Positions 17,054-24,998 of a stretch of DNA of 64,000 bases are shown one piece after another (positions within the stretch are counted from its first letter, which is position 1; each line of letters starts with the position of its first letter). The DNA is from Methanoculleus taiwanensis (GTDB lineage: Archaea; Halobacteriota; Methanomicrobia; Methanomicrobiales; Methanoculleaceae), in NCBI RefSeq assembly GCF_004102725.1, contig NZ_LHQS01000002.1, positions 1,045,984 through 1,109,983 on the forward strand, given 5' to 3'. The position numbers and the translations under genes are program-made. The notes under the pieces were generated by a model. The model made no database searches. It was not told the origin of the DNA and was given only the letters and a program-made list of their open reading frames with translations.

Positions 17054-17612
17054 ATGGAGACGTTCGAGGAGGCAAGGGCGTTCACCGATGATCCGTCGTA
17101 CGACGCCGAGCGGCAGATTGCATTCGAGGAACTCCGCACCGGGATGAACGAGGGTTCGATTGACCCTCCGCTGCGAGCTCCTTCGGGAGTTTTCAGAGGT
17201 CCCTCACTGTTTCACCCTGCAGAGCTGCTACGGCCATTTCGTACACGAACGGCAGCCGGATGCTCATAATCTCGAGCCACTTGCAGGCTATGCAGGTGTG
17301 ATCGACGAGGTTTTGTACCGCATCGCGTATCTGGCGGTCTGTATCCGAAATAGTGAGGCAGGCTTTGCGCTGCAGCGTGATCTCCGGGACGTCGCCGGGA
17401 TCGATCCGTCGTACATCCAGTTCGGGAGCGCCGGGTGGTTCTGGGAGCGGCGTATCAATACATACGTCCTACAGGTGGAGCCGGAGCGGTGCAGACTGGA
17501 GGACACCTGCCCCGTCGGCATCGACGAAGCCCTTCGCCTGGAGCAGGTTCGTGAACGGTTCTTCCGCGAGCTGCTCGGAATAGCCCGGAGACACCGCTAT
17601 CCGGAGGGGTGA
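17054..17612 (+). pseudogene. Frameshifted gene of unknown function
   Basis: Two overlapping frames read as one protein. The first (from ATG 17054: METFEEARAFTDD...RTGMNEGSIDP) loses sense near 17160-17175. The second frame then continues with ELLREFSEVPHCFTLQSCYGHF and runs well-formed to 17612. Restoring one protein needs one base removed (or two added) around 17150-17180. The joined product would be about 185 residues, with a Cys/His-containing core and no family I can name. It could be a true mutation or a sequencing error. Confidence 0.5.
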
Positions 17613-17671
17613 GCGCGGGCTCATCCCCGTTCGACAGGTTCATATGCATCCCTGCCGTTGAAGCCTCTGCT

Positions 17672-18175
17672 ATGACCTCGCGAATGCTCTCCCGCGACGA
17701 CCTCGAGCAGCGGGTCGTCGATTTTCTGGCGACGGAAGGAATGTGCGTCCTCGCCACCTGCTCGATGAACGTCCCGAGGGCGTCCGCCGTCGAGTTCTTC
17801 CCGGCAGGGACGACGCTCTATATCCTGACCGAGGGAGGCCGGAAGGTTGAGAATATCAGCGAAAACCCGGCAGTCTCGGTGGCTATCCATACGCAGTTTA
17901 TCGGGTGGGAGCATATCAAGGGTATCCAGCTGACCGGCATCGCGGAGATAGGCAGATACGGATCGGCGATATTCAGCGAGGGCGAGGCGGCATACCGGAG
18001 GAGAAAGGGGCAGGATGCCCGGAGCATCCCTGAAGAGCTCTACGCAATCCGGATCACGCCGGTGCGGATTGAGTTTCTTGACATGACGCGGAGAGCGGAA
18101 GGTCTCTCGCCGAAGCAGGAGATCGAGTATCCGGTGGATGCCGGCCGCGCAGGTGTCTGCCGGGTCGGGTTCTGA
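17672..18175 (+). CDS. Pyridoxamine 5'-phosphate oxidase-like flavin-binding protein
   Basis: A 167-residue split-barrel protein. The N-terminal pattern VDFLATEGMCVLATCSMNVPRASAVEFF is the strand-turn-strand that opens the FMN-binding split barrel, and LYILTEGGRKVENISENPAVSVAI is the next conserved block. Members bind FMN, F420 or haem and reduce small molecules; which cofactor is used here is not clear. The ATG at 17672 matches the family start; a frame extending upstream to 17609 is unlikely to be translated. Confidence 0.8.
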   Translation: MTSRMLSRDDLEQRVVDFLATEGMCVLATCSMNVPRASAVEFFPAGTTLYILTEGGRKVENISENPAVSVAIHTQFIGWEHIKGIQLTGIAEIGRYGSAIFSEGEAAYRRRKGQDARSIPEELYAIRITPVRIEFLDMTRRAEGLSPKQEIEYPVDAGRAGVCRVGF

Positions 18176-18964
18176 TCACCCGGTCTCCGCAAGGCTCCGC
18201 CGGATCTGCCGCCGGGTCTGCCATTCAATTACGCGGCCGACGGCGTCGTAGACCGGGTTGACCGGCACGTCGACGAAGTAGCGCTTCCCGGGCGCGAGCC
18301 AGCCCATCTCGTCCCAGTAGGCGTAGTCGACCGGAGAGTGGTTTCGGAGCTCGTCGAACGTTCCCCGCTGGCCGTGAAAGATGATGACGTCCCGAAGGCC
18401 GGGTGACGCCCGCGTCTTCCGGTTTAGGGCCTCATAAAAAACTCTTGCGGCATCTCTGAGTGTCTGCTCGTTCTTCTGCGTCTGCCGTGCGGAGATCACC
18501 GGCGACGTGACGATACCGGCGCGGCCGGCGACCTCGAACCCCCAGACGGTGGCGACGAGGTTTAAGTAGTCGAGGACGTCTTTCTCCCCGAGCGCACCGG
18601 CGGTCGCGAGGAGGAGCGCTTTTTTGTCGAAGAACCGGGGACGGTGAAAGATGTAGCTCAACCGGTCGATGAAGACCTTCATCAGCCCCGAGACGTTCAT
18701 TCCGTAGACCGGAGAGGCGAAGATCACGCCTTCGGCGTCGTGCATCTTCTGCTCGATCGACGGGGCGTCGTCCTTTCGGGGGCAGCGCTCCTCGCCCTTC
18801 TCGAAACAGAGGAAACACCCGAGGCACTGGGCGAGGTTGGCATCCTTCAGCATCAGGTACTCAAACTCCACCTCCCCGAGCGACCGCATCGCTGCCTCGA
18901 TCGTCTGTGCCGCCCGGTAGGTGTTGCCTTTCCGCGGGCTGCCCATGATGACAAGGACTCTCAT
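18176..18964 (-). CDS. Iron-sulfur flavoprotein (flavodoxin/FMN reductase family)
   Basis: A 262-residue protein beginning MRVLVIMGSPRKGNTYRAAQ, the FMN phosphate loop. The cluster motif CLGCFLCFEKGEERC is C-x2-C-x2-C-x6-C. ASPVYGMNVSGLMKVFIDRLSY is the flavin ring loop. A C-terminal extension of about 60 residues (WDEMGWLAPGKRYF...) is absent from the shorter paralogues and may cap the active site. It is divergent from the rhodopsin gene, with 93 bases between the two starts. Confidence 0.85.
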   Translation of the reverse strand: MRVLVIMGSPRKGNTYRAAQTIEAAMRSLGEVEFEYLMLKDANLAQCLGCFLCFEKGEERCPRKDDAPSIEQKMHDAEGVIFASPVYGMNVSGLMKVFIDRLSYIFHRPRFFDKKALLLATAGALGEKDVLDYLNLVATVWGFEVAGRAGIVTSPVISARQTQKNEQTLRDAARVFYEALNRKTRASPGLRDVIIFHGQRGTFDELRNHSPVDYAYWDEMGWLAPGKRYFVDVPVNPVYDAVGRVIEWQTRRQIRRSLAETG

Positions 18965-19057
18965 GGGCATCCCATGGCGGCCGGACAGCATCAATCAGCC
19001 GGTTGATCGGCACTATCCTTATGTAGTCCGGCACGCATCATGGCGCAGTGAGATGCT

Positions 19058-19711
19058 ATGGCCGGTGAAGAGATGCTTGTCTTCTGGGCAGGGGCGGTGA
19101 TCTTCGGGCTTGCCACCCTGCTTTTCGTGGTGCTCAAGCTTCGCAGACCCGAATATGGGATCTTCTACGGTTCCGATATCTTCGTCTGCTTTATTACGAC
19201 GATCTCGTATGTTACGATGGCGCTCGCCCTCGGGACATCCGTCGCAGCGGACGGACAACCGATATACTGGACGCGGTGGCTCTACTACATCGCAAGCTGC
19301 AGTATCCTGACGCTCGACGTGGCCTATCTCGCCGGCAGGCCGACGGTGACGAAGTTCGAGGTCGCACTCTTCACCGGGCTCGTCATGTTCTGCGGCTTTC
19401 TGGCAAGTTTCCTCACCGGGCCTGAGAGGTGGTGGTTCTTCGCATTCAGCAGCGCCGCATACGCAGGGCTCCTCTACACCCTCTTTGCCGGGACGGGGCG
19501 GGCAGAGCCGGGGATGAAGCCGGTCATGTGGTTTATCCTGCTATTCTGGACGCTCTTTCCGGTCGTCTGGGTGCTGGCGCCGACTGGGCTCGGGATCATC
19601 ACGACTCCTGCCGGGGCGGTTCTTTACGCCATCCTCGACATCATCACCAAGATCGTCTTCGGTCTCTGGATCACGATGCGTATTCTCCCTTTCCGGCAGC
19701 CGATCGGATGA
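19058..19711 (+). CDS. Microbial (type-1) rhodopsin
   Basis: A 217-residue, seven-helix protein that aligns along its length with bacteriorhodopsin. Helix G has AILDIITKIVFGLWI, with Lys198 (retinal Schiff base, bR K216) and Asp194 (bR D212). Helix F has W164-x2-FP-x2-W171 (bR W182, Y185 as Phe, P186, W189), with exactly the bR spacing to the lysine. Helix C has YWTR with Arg73 (bR R82). The acceptor position D85 is Tyr76, T89 is Ser80, and D96 is conserved as Asp87. Loss of the proton acceptor argues against a normal outward proton pump; a sensor or unusual photochemistry is more likely. No transducer or retinal-synthesis gene is nearby. GTGAG lies 6 bases before the ATG. Confidence 0.9.
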   Translation: MAGEEMLVFWAGAVIFGLATLLFVVLKLRRPEYGIFYGSDIFVCFITTISYVTMALALGTSVAADGQPIYWTRWLYYIASCSILTLDVAYLAGRPTVTKFEVALFTGLVMFCGFLASFLTGPERWWFFAFSSAAYAGLLYTLFAGTGRAEPGMKPVMWFILLFWTLFPVVWVLAPTGLGIITTPAGAVLYAILDIITKIVFGLWITMRILPFRQPIG

Positions 19712-19752: not shown

Positions 19753-20067
19753 TCACCTCTCGTCAGCCGGCTTTTTGAGGTGCGCACGCAGGTACGCAAA
19801 ATCATCCTCGGTCGCGTTGATCTCGTAGAGCACGGTTCCGTACCCCGGACAGAGCTTCGTGAAGGGAAGAAGGATCTTCTGCCTCCGGATCTGCATGCCG
19901 AGAAGCATCGGCGCTTTGAGCAGTATCCGGATATCCCGGAAGACAAACTCCGGGTAGAGTTCGTACTGCTCTTTTGAGTTCTTCGTAACGTACCTGTTCA
20001 CTTCATCGGGCGTTGTGTCCTTTAAGAGCACCTTGCCGCCGAGATTGTTAATGCATCGGGAGGGCAT
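19753..20067 (-). CDS. DUF1894-like methanogen protein
   Basis: A 104-residue protein starting MPSRCINNLGGKVLLKDTTPDE. The order of blocks (Cys-Ile-Asn near the start, a VRKN-like helix NRYVTKNSKEQY, then a beta strand and LLPFTKLCPGYGTVLYEI) resembles DUF1894, a family confined to methanogens and without known function. It converges with the rhodopsin gene. Confidence 0.6.
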   Translation of the reverse strand: MPSRCINNLGGKVLLKDTTPDEVNRYVTKNSKEQYELYPEFVFRDIRILLKAPMLLGMQIRRQKILLPFTKLCPGYGTVLYEINATEDDFAYLRAHLKKPADER

Positions 20068-22243: not shown

Positions 22244-22355
22244 CGGAGCGCCGTTCCCGGAGGCGGGCATCGCAGCCTGCCGGGCGGGGCTGAAGCGTCC
22301 ACCGTTTCAAGCACCGTTCCACTTATTGTCTGATACAGCGTACCTTTTTAATGAA

Positions 22356-24998
22356 ATGCGTGAACCGGCCGTCAAGAAAGATCTCTACTGGTGCGATACC
22401 TGCAACGTCCCCCTTATAGGACGCCGATGCGGCTGCGGAGCGGAAGGGAGACAGATCCCTCTCCTGCAGCCCTACGATCTCCGCCCGGCACTCGCGGCGG
22501 ATGCCGACCTCATCAGGAGGCTCGTGCACGAGCGATTCGGCGCGGTTCCCCTGCCGAAGATCATCCTCCTGAACAAGACCGGAGGCACCGACCGTGCCGA
22601 CCTCGTGATCATGCACGGGAACCGGTTCGGCTGGCTCACGTTCGATCCGGTGGAGCGCCGGTTCAGTCTCGATATCGCGCCCGAGGCGCTCCCCCATATC
22701 ATCCCGTACGCAACGCGCGGCATCGTCGCGCTTGAGGATCACCTCGACCCCGGCAGGGGAAAGATCCGTATCGGCGGCAAACGGTTTCCCTTAACCAGCC
22801 CGGTGGCCGACGGGATGGCGATCGTGACCTACCGGGGCAAACACGGCACCGGAATCGTCCGCGAGGGGCATATCAAGGTGAAGGAACTCTCGCCGGTAAC
22901 CCCCCGGGAGTGCAGCGACCCTGACTGGAACGTCGCGATCGACCGGAACCGCTACCACCTCAAAAACCTCGAGCGGGCCGCCGTCCGCACCATCAAGCAG
23001 CATATGCACGACCGGCCGAACGCGAACGTATCCTTCTCCGGCGGCAAGGACAGCGCCGCCGTCCTCCACCTCGCCAGGAAAGCCGGTGTTACGAAGGCGT
23101 TCTTCATCGATACCGGGATAGAGCTCCCCGAGACGGTCGAGTACGTCGCATCGCAGGGCGTCGAGATCGTCCGGAAAGCCGGAGATTTCTTCCAGGCGGT
23201 CGAGAAGGTCGGGCCGCCCGGGAAAGACCATCGCTGGTGCTGCAAGCTCCTAAAGCTTCATCCGCTCAAGATCTACCTCGCCGAGGTCGGCCCCTCCGTC
23301 ACGATGCAGGGGAACCGGTGGTACGAGTCATGGAACCGTGCCGATCTCGATGAAACCAGCCAGAACCCGGCGAACCCCCTGCAGCTGAACGTATCCCCGA
23401 TACGGAGCTGGCGGGCGCTCGAGGTCTTCCTCTACCTCTGGTGGCGGAACGTTCCCATCAACCCGCTCTACGATAAGGGACTCGAACGGATCGGGTGCTA
23501 CCTCTGTCCGGCCATGCTCGAAAGCGAGTACGAAGCGCTCCGGGTCATGCACCCCGACCTCACCCGCCGCTGGGACGAGTTCCTCGAGAAGTGGGCTGCG
23601 AAGTCGGGGATGCCCGAGGCCTACTGCACCTGGGGGCTCTGGCGATGGCGGGCGCTGCCGCCGAAGATGCGCGAACTCTGCAGGGAGAAGGGTATTCCCG
23701 TCAACGACGACTATACCCTGCGTCCCCTGCCGGAGGCTGAGCGGCGGGTTCTGGCCGAACCTGCTGCACGGGCTCCGCCTGCCGAACCGCCCGTGATCGC
23801 CGATGAGGCCGAGGGGTTCGCCGTGGATGCCGTCAGGAAAGATTTCCCGATCCTCGGCGACTTTGTCTACCTCGACTCCGCAGCGATGAGTTTCTCACCG
23901 GAGCCCGTCGTAGCGGCGCACCTCGAGTTCGAACACCGCTACCGGGCCAACGTCGGGCGGGGCGTGCACCGGTTCACCCGGATAGCGACGCAGCGTTACT
24001 GGCATGCTCACGAGAAGGTGGCGCGGTTCATCGGGGGCGATGCGGGCGTTACTGTCTTTACGAAGAACACGACCGAGGCGATCAACATGGTCGCGCAGGG
24101 GCTCTGCTGGAAGCCGGGAGACCGGGTGATCACCACGATCCTCGAGCACCACTCGAACCTGCTGCCGTGGCGGGCGCTCGCTCGGCAGGGTGTCGCGCTC
24201 GACGTCATCGGCATCAACGAGGACTACTCGCTCGACCTTGCCGCGCTCGAGGACGCCATCACCGATACGACCCGGCTCGTCGCCGTCACCCACGCCTCGA
24301 ACGCCATCGGCGTCGTTACGCCCGTCGAAGAGATCGCCCGGATCTGCCGTGACCGCGGCGTTCTCCTGCTCGTCGACGCTGCGCAGTCCGTCCCGCATAT
24401 GCCCGTCGATATCGGCAGGCTCGGATGCGACTTCCTCTGCTTCTCGGGCCACAAGATGCTCGGGCCGACCGGCACCGGCGTCCTCTGGATGCGGGAGGCG
24501 ATCATCGAACCGTCCCTGCTCGGCGGGGGGATGATCGAGACCGTGACGGAAGATGCGTATGTTCCGGCGGAAGGTTACGGCCGCTACGAGGCCGGGACGC
24601 CGAACGTTGCCGGCGGGATCGGCCTCGGGGTTGCGGTGGACTATCTCGAAGCCATCGGCATGGAGAAGATCCGCCGGCACGAAGAGCGCCTGACGACGCG
24701 GCTCATCGAAGGGCTCTCTGCCATCGACGGCGTCCGGGTCTACGCTCCGAAGGATCCGGCATCCCGTATCGGTGTCGTCTCCTTCAATGTCGAGAATATC
24801 CACCCGCATGAGGTCGCGCAGTACCTCGACGAGGAGGCGGAGATCCTCGTCCGGTCGGGCTACCACTGCTGCCAGCCGCTCATGGAGTATCTCGGTCTGC
24901 CCGACGGGACGGTGCGGGCGAGCTTATCGCTCTACACCACCGAGCAGGAGATAGATCTCCTCATCGCCGCCGTCGGCGAGATCGCACGGGGACGCTGA
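22356..24998 (+). CDS. Fused PAPS-reductase-like ATP-pyrophosphatase and SufS-like cysteine desulfurase
   Basis: An 880-residue multidomain protein. Residues 13-28 are a zinc ribbon (CDTC, CGCG); 40-200 look like a PUA-type domain. From about 220 to 440 comes an N-type ATP-PPase of the CysH family, with the PP-loop SFSGGKDS near residue 227 and cysteines in RWCCKLLKL and CYLCPAM. From 500 to the end comes a complete group II cysteine desulfurase: PLP lysine 700 in SGHKMLGPTG and catalytic Cys838 in RSGYHC. The desulfurase would supply persulfide to the ATP-PPase half, as in tRNA thiolation or sulfur-cofactor synthesis, rather than sulfate assimilation. The ATG at 22356 is chosen; a TTG at 22326 is possible. 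It converges with fdhD. Confidence 0.88.
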   Translation: MREPAVKKDLYWCDTCNVPLIGRRCGCGAEGRQIPLLQPYDLRPALAADADLIRRLVHERFGAVPLPKIILLNKTGGTDRADLVIMHGNRFGWLTFDPVERRFSLDIAPEALPHIIPYATRGIVALEDHLDPGRGKIRIGGKRFPLTSPVADGMAIVTYRGKHGTGIVREGHIKVKELSPVTPRECSDPDWNVAIDRNRYHLKNLERAAVRTIKQHMHDRPNANVSFSGGKDSAAVLHLARKAGVTKAFFIDTGIELPETVEYVASQGVEIVRKAGDFFQAVEKVGPPGKDHRWCCKLLKLHPLKIYLAEVGPSVTMQGNRWYESWNRADLDETSQNPANPLQLNVSPIRSWRALEVFLYLWWRNVPINPLYDKGLERIGCYLCPAMLESEYEALRVMHPDLTRRWDEFLEKWAAKSGMPEAYCTWGLWRWRALPPKMRELCREKGIPVNDDYTLRPLPEAERRVLAEPAARAPPAEPPVIADEAEGFAVDAVRKDFPILGDFVYLDSAAMSFSPEPVVAAHLEFEHRYRANVGRGVHRFTRIATQRYWHAHEKVARFIGGDAGVTVFTKNTTEAINMVAQGLCWKPGDRVITTILEHHSNLLPWRALARQGVALDVIGINEDYSLDLAALEDAITDTTRLVAVTHASNAIGVVTPVEEIARICRDRGVLLLVDAAQSVPHMPVDIGRLGCDFLCFSGHKMLGPTGTGVLWMREAIIEPSLLGGGMIETVTEDAYVPAEGYGRYEAGTPNVAGGIGLGVAVDYLEAIGMEKIRRHEERLTTRLIEGLSAIDGVRVYAPKDPASRIGVVSFNVENIHPHEVAQYLDEEAEILVRSGYHCCQPLMEYLGLPDGTVRASLSLYTTEQEIDLLIAAVGEIARGR

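Follow-up and report, generated by a model that had tools for sequence, protein, structure and literature searches.

A type-1 rhodopsin gene in a methanogen

The window, the whole 64,000-nucleotide stretch of Methanoculleus taiwanensis DNA that was analyzed, carries a complete rhodopsin open reading frame whose stop at 19711 lies about 40 bases from a DUF1894 gene. The features at the locus are as follows, and for the first two no functional link to the rhodopsin was shown.

17609 to 18175, plus strand: PNPOx-like gene, syntenic in Methanoculleus sp. FWC-SCC1, that weakly matches an F420-dependent PPOX-class model
18176 to 18994, minus strand: FMN-reductase/flavodoxin-like gene, divergent from the rhodopsin, syntenic in FWC-SCC1 with 77% identity
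19058 to 19711, plus strand: type-1 rhodopsin of the schizorhodopsin (SzR) clade, 217 amino acids, complete, with Y76/S80/D87, R73, D194, K198 and Asp40
19753 to 20067, minus strand: DUF1894 gene, next 3' of the rhodopsin (flank annotation)

The frame matches PF01036 (Bac_rhodopsin) over residues 7-205 with an E-value of 2.2e-27 and 96 bits, against a family cut-off of 24.6 bits, and is the single match to this family in the 2.75-Mb genome. AlphaFold2, for which ten sequences from the window and the related loci were used as input, models the window protein with a seven-helix architecture at a mean pLDDT of 90.6, in line with an earlier sequence-only reading that had aligned all seven helices with bacteriorhodopsin (BR). 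Alignment, model and profile together give the seven helices, the helix G Schiff-base lysine and the PF01036 match of a type-1 rhodopsin. The assignment of this gene to a methanogen also held, as coenzyme-M biosynthesis genes are found in the same genome, the DUF1894 gene adjoins and the site is syntenic with that of FWC-SCC1. Elsewhere in the window, an 890-residue frame (22326-24998, plus strand) looks like a fusion, its first half matching PAPS-reductase-like models and residues ~500-886 of its second half matching SufS-type cysteine desulfurase models.

Placement with the schizorhodopsins

Comparison with all PDB chains revealed SzR4 (7e4g) as the best sequence match at 131 bits, followed by AntR at 99 and bacteriorhodopsin at 57, and Foldseek likewise returned SzR4 7e4g as the top match of the model (rmsd 1.4 Å, TM 0.95 by target). 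This placement is matched by a maximum-likelihood tree, in which the window protein falls among the type-1 rhodopsins on the SzR side, grouping with SzR and AntR apart from BR, ASR, XeR and MrHR with a support of 100/99; the same split was recovered at 99/97 with two more distant rows included.

Residues were mapped to bacteriorhodopsin on a MAFFT alignment of 28 sequences, 22 of them on the SzR side. R82, D85, T89, D96, D212 and K216 of bacteriorhodopsin correspond to R73, Y76, S80, D87, D194 and K198, so that every one of these positions agrees with the earlier reading, including the retinal lysine and its counter-ion. The aromatic retinal box, whose helix F part had been described as intact, is only partly so: W182, P186 and W189 are kept as W164, P168 and W171, whereas Y185, W86 and W138 are F167, Y77 and F128. 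The changes Y77, F128 and F167 are common to schizorhodopsins. The SzR side shares an aromatic residue at BR85, Tyr at 86, Phe at 138 and 185, Tyr at 208, Thr at 215 and Thr at 53; the window rhodopsin has the corresponding pocket (T47, Y77, F128, F167, Y190 and T197), and every pocket position that separates SzR from BR, ASR, XeR and MrHR in the alignment is present in it.

By sequence, D194 is the single Schiff-base counter-ion, and the D85 acceptor of bacteriorhodopsin is replaced by Y76. Tyr at this position is restricted to the window protein and its FWC-SCC1 counterpart among the 22 SzR-side sequences, the rest having Phe. Since the helix-3 counter-ion position of schizorhodopsins is a neutral aromatic residue such as Phe or Tyr (PMC13093656, 2026), Tyr76 is a hallmark of the group and no anomaly, and the combination of an aromatic BR85 with a sole D212-type Asp counter-ion is found here as Y76 and D194. 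The sequence-only reading of Y-S-D as an unrecognized motif is not supported; sequence, fold and tree agree on the SzR side, and only the Asp at BR96 departs from the usual Glu.

With SzR4, the window protein shares the aromatic BR85, Tyr 86, Ser 89, the sole counter-ion D212, K216, Thr 215, Phe 185 and Tyr 208, but SzR4 is F-S-E with Asn at BR46, in contrast to Y-S-D with Asp40, at 36-37% identity. AntR (PDB 9or2) has the same pocket signature, belongs to the SzR side in the tree and is the second-best sequence match, yet it is F-S-E, 39% identical and on a separate branch with a Chloroflexota (Brevefilum) protein. Judged by sequence and predicted fold, the window protein is best classed as a schizorhodopsin-type rhodopsin, a new member of an already known group.

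Relatives, distribution and selection

A scan of genome contigs identified nine related loci. The rhodopsin of Methanoculleus sp. FWC-SCC1 is 90% identical to the window protein and has the same Y-S-D motif, the same Asp at BR46 and the same genomic site. The closest relatives beyond Methanoculleus are those of a Bathyarchaeota MAG (60% identity) and two Hermodarchaeota MAGs (52-55%), followed by Methanoculleus sp. SpSt-1212 and Methanomicrobiaceae M17C-73-02 (44% each), two Lokiarchaeia (35-37%) and a Chloroflexota Brevefilum MAG (36%). Rhodopsins over the cut-off are found in 4 of the 199 sampled genomes of the window's order and in 15 of 227 genomes of the Asgard phylum, one of which (L035) is not SzR-like. 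This last protein (G243:C37) has Asp at BR85, Lys at BR96 and a very long branch. A further match in another genome of the order (E 3e-4) was rejected as chance, being under the cut-off, overlapping a different membrane protein and containing an internal stop (L005). The viral contigs searched contained no relative of the window rhodopsin, and the sole match in the plasmid search was a Salinibacter rhodopsin with 26% identity. The four methanogen rhodopsins (window, FWC-SCC1, SpSt-1212 and M17C-73-02) are split in the best tree; their joint grouping is not rejected (p-AU 0.16), and one acquisition is thus not distinguished from two.

Between the window gene and its FWC-SCC1 ortholog, dN/dS was 0.050/0.44 (NG86) and 0.039/0.74 (YN00), a ratio of ~0.05-0.11, and the gene is under strong purifying selection and maintained. 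Contamination was considered and rejected, the gene being embedded in a 1.21-Mb contig, with matching GC, at a site syntenic with FWC-SCC1. Synteny, 90% identity and low dN/dS together indicate that the gene is neither contamination nor decaying.

The neighborhoods of the more distant relatives differ in content. In the Bathyarchaeota MAG (L019:10753-12286), a SOUL heme-binding gene and a heliorhodopsin (PF18761, E 7.7e-92) come after the SzR-like gene, which places two rhodopsin classes next to each other. By Pfam, the surroundings of one Hermodarchaeota SzR-like gene (L026:8488-13861; F-S-S with Asp at BR46) include genes for AhpC/TSA-peroxiredoxin, DNA photolyase and Fapy-glycosylase. By eye only, a PNPOx-like gene was recognized both there and at the second Hermodarchaeota locus (L020:200-3631), and photolyase-like and peroxiredoxin-like genes at the latter. 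A search of the window genome yielded no homologues of the photolyase, heliorhodopsin and SOUL neighbors.

Cytoplasmic-side carboxylates at BR96 and BR46

Across the 22 SzR-side sequences, BR96 is Glu in 12, Asp in 5 and Ser in 5. Glu is present in every typical SzR and AntR-like row of the alignment, SzR4 and AntR among them; Asp is found in the window protein (D87), FWC-SCC1, Bathyarchaeota, SpSt-1212 and M17C-73-02, and Ser in five Hermodarchaeota-type rows. The usual schizorhodopsin Glu (F/Y-S-E), which we take as typical and not strictly defining, is replaced by D87 here, and with Asp at BR96 against Glu in 12 of 22, the protein is termed schizorhodopsin-clade or schizorhodopsin-type.

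Thr46 and Asp96 are neighbors in bacteriorhodopsin. At the helix B position BR46, the Lokiarchaeia-type rows, SzR4 and Bathyarchaeota have Asn, and AntR and Brevefilum have Ala. Asp occupies it in the window protein (D40), in FWC-SCC1 and in the Hermodarchaeota-type rows, and SpSt-1212 and M17C-73-02 carry Glu. The nearest relatives outside Methanoculleus differ from the window protein, with its Y-S-D and Asp at BR46: the Hermodarchaeota rhodopsins are F-S-S with Asp at BR46, and the Bathyarchaeota rhodopsin is F-S-D with Asn. From the alignment, the cytoplasmic-side carboxylate appears to have shifted between helices, with the methanogen protein having both.

Proposed function and mechanism

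Homology to characterized schizorhodopsins makes it probable that the window protein is a light-driven inward proton pump, given that its Schiff-base region is the same as in the tested SzRs. In these, protons are moved inward and the D212-type Asp is assigned as the sole counter-ion, and formation of the M intermediate coincides with proton release to the cytoplasm (PMC7704677); re-isomerization then precedes reprotonation from outside (PMC13093656). By this scheme, light would isomerize all-trans retinal on K198, and the Schiff-base proton would leave toward the cytoplasm, the D85 site having no carboxylate, with D87 on helix C and D40 on helix B assisting. The retinal would then re-isomerize and the Schiff base would be reprotonated from outside past R73/D194, giving a net transfer of one proton inward per photocycle. 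Retinal binding, photocycle and direction are here extrapolated to a protein whose residues, predicted fold and family were established directly. Either D87 in place of Glu or the additional D40 could alter or abolish transport, which counts against the inward-pump reading.

The sequence-only reading had regarded this as a light-sensing gene, for which an inward proton pump is the better interpretation. Its observation that no transducer lies beside the gene was correct, as none was found among the scanned flanking genes of the window. In FWC-SCC1, a chemosensory block of ~7.2 kb lies between the rhodopsin and DUF1894:

L018:10761-17864, on the rhodopsin strand and directly 3' of it: CheW, MCP (Cache_3-Cache_2), CheA and a response-regulator kinase

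This cluster in the sister species hints at sensing and speaks against a pump. The protein would then be a sensory rhodopsin signaling to a chemotaxis pathway, with the SzR-type chemistry serving the photocycle only; the same-strand arrangement of CheW, MCP, CheA (Hpt-HATPase-CheW-REC) and kinase next to the ortholog, along with MCP and CheW homologues elsewhere in the window genome, is consistent with such a role. However, the window genome has no such block at this site, its best MCP and CheA matches elsewhere being only ~26-34% identical, and for this reason sensing ranks second. Furthermore, a sensor domain (Cache_3-Cache_2) is already part of the MCP in FWC-SCC1, and the SzR Schiff-base region is kept in both species. 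Overall, we consider sensing unlikely.

Retinal supply

No Brp/Blh (PF15461) was found in the window genome or in the 199 sampled genomes of the order; the search is validated by its recovery with the same model, over the cut-off, from 29 of 247 genomes in the phylum. Two haloarchaeal Brp proteins likewise had no match in 2,750,110 of the 2,750,720 bases of the genome, and neither a CarR/CrtYcd-type lycopene cyclase (PF18916) nor an RPE65-type oxygenase (PF03055) was found there. The earlier remark that no carotenoid oxygenase lies beside the gene is borne out in the scanned flanks and extends genome-wide for PF15461 and PF03055. Altogether, none of the retinal-forming routes searched (PF15461, PF18916 and PF03055) was detected in the genome. 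A carotenoid locus is nevertheless present, so that of the brp/blh and carotenoid genes considered in the sequence-only reading only the latter were recovered:

G000:C1 ~318.2-322.5 kb (L012:7225-11507), on another contig: C50-type carotenoid cluster with CruF-like PF04240, CrtI/D, PF00494 and UbiA

In this cluster, the CrtI/D-type desaturase is over the NF058655 cut-off and the UbiA prenyltransferase over that of NF009516, and PF00494 represents phytoene synthase. PF04240 occurs in 40 of the 199 genomes of the order and is consequently not tied to the rhodopsin.

That no retinal-forming enzyme was found counts against the pump reading, the holoprotein being putative in the cell. Known retinal-forming oxygenases need oxygen. 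For the proposed pump, retinal would be supplied from outside the cell or by an unrecognized route. That the protein is a relic, or stays without retinal in this host, would fit the missing Brp/Blh in this order, when 29 genomes of the phylum have it, and the missing lycopene cyclase and RPE65-type oxygenase. We consider this very improbable in view of the full-length frame, the retention of all retinal-pocket residues and the low dN/dS. PF15461 was also not found in nine SzR-carrying genomes, Asgard included, by a search without its own positive control, and its absence is therefore not peculiar to this host. An outward proton pump with D87 as a BR D96-like donor would account for the Asp shared with bacteriorhodopsin at BR96, but it is hardly credible, as the Asp or Glu that outward pumps need at BR85 is Tyr76 with no substitute carboxylate and the affinity is to SzR and not to BR. 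A xenorhodopsin was also rejected, since it needs Pro at D212 and Asp at D85, where the protein has D194 and Y76, and the tree is likewise against it.

A more speculative proposal, which we hold to be possible though doubtful, is drawn from the aligned residues: Methanoculleus, Bathyarchaeota and Hermodarchaeota would form an SzR sub-lineage in which helix B took over the cytoplasmic-side carboxylate of helix C (Glu at BR96 in SzR; Asp at BR46 with Ser at BR96 in Hermodarchaeota). The methanogen pair would perhaps be the true proton-trapping acceptor, with retinal either scavenged from outside or formed along an unknown route independent of oxygen.

Prior knowledge and implications

MtSzR of Methanoculleus taiwanensis and MsSzR of a Methanoculleus sp. 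were reportedly described by Kawasaki et al. in 2021 as thermostable inward proton pumps. That paper is cited in PMC9257189. The window protein may be identical with one of the two or closely orthologous, and possibly already described; if it is MtSzR or MsSzR, the finding is already published. Our literature search, whose reach did not extend to Inoue 2020 and Kawasaki 2021, returned no paper tying Methanoculleus to schizorhodopsins.

The rhodopsin is real, maintained and not unprecedented, and the points of interest are its retinal supply, its physiological use and the Asp40/Asp87 pair. Light is of no obvious use to a strict anaerobe that depends on methanogenesis, and pumping protons inward would consume the proton gradient rather than build it. 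The physiological role of inward pumps has been called unclear (PMC13093656, PMC12002130). A Methanoculleus bearing this gene would offer a living host in which the purpose of schizorhodopsins and the origin of their retinal could be tested.
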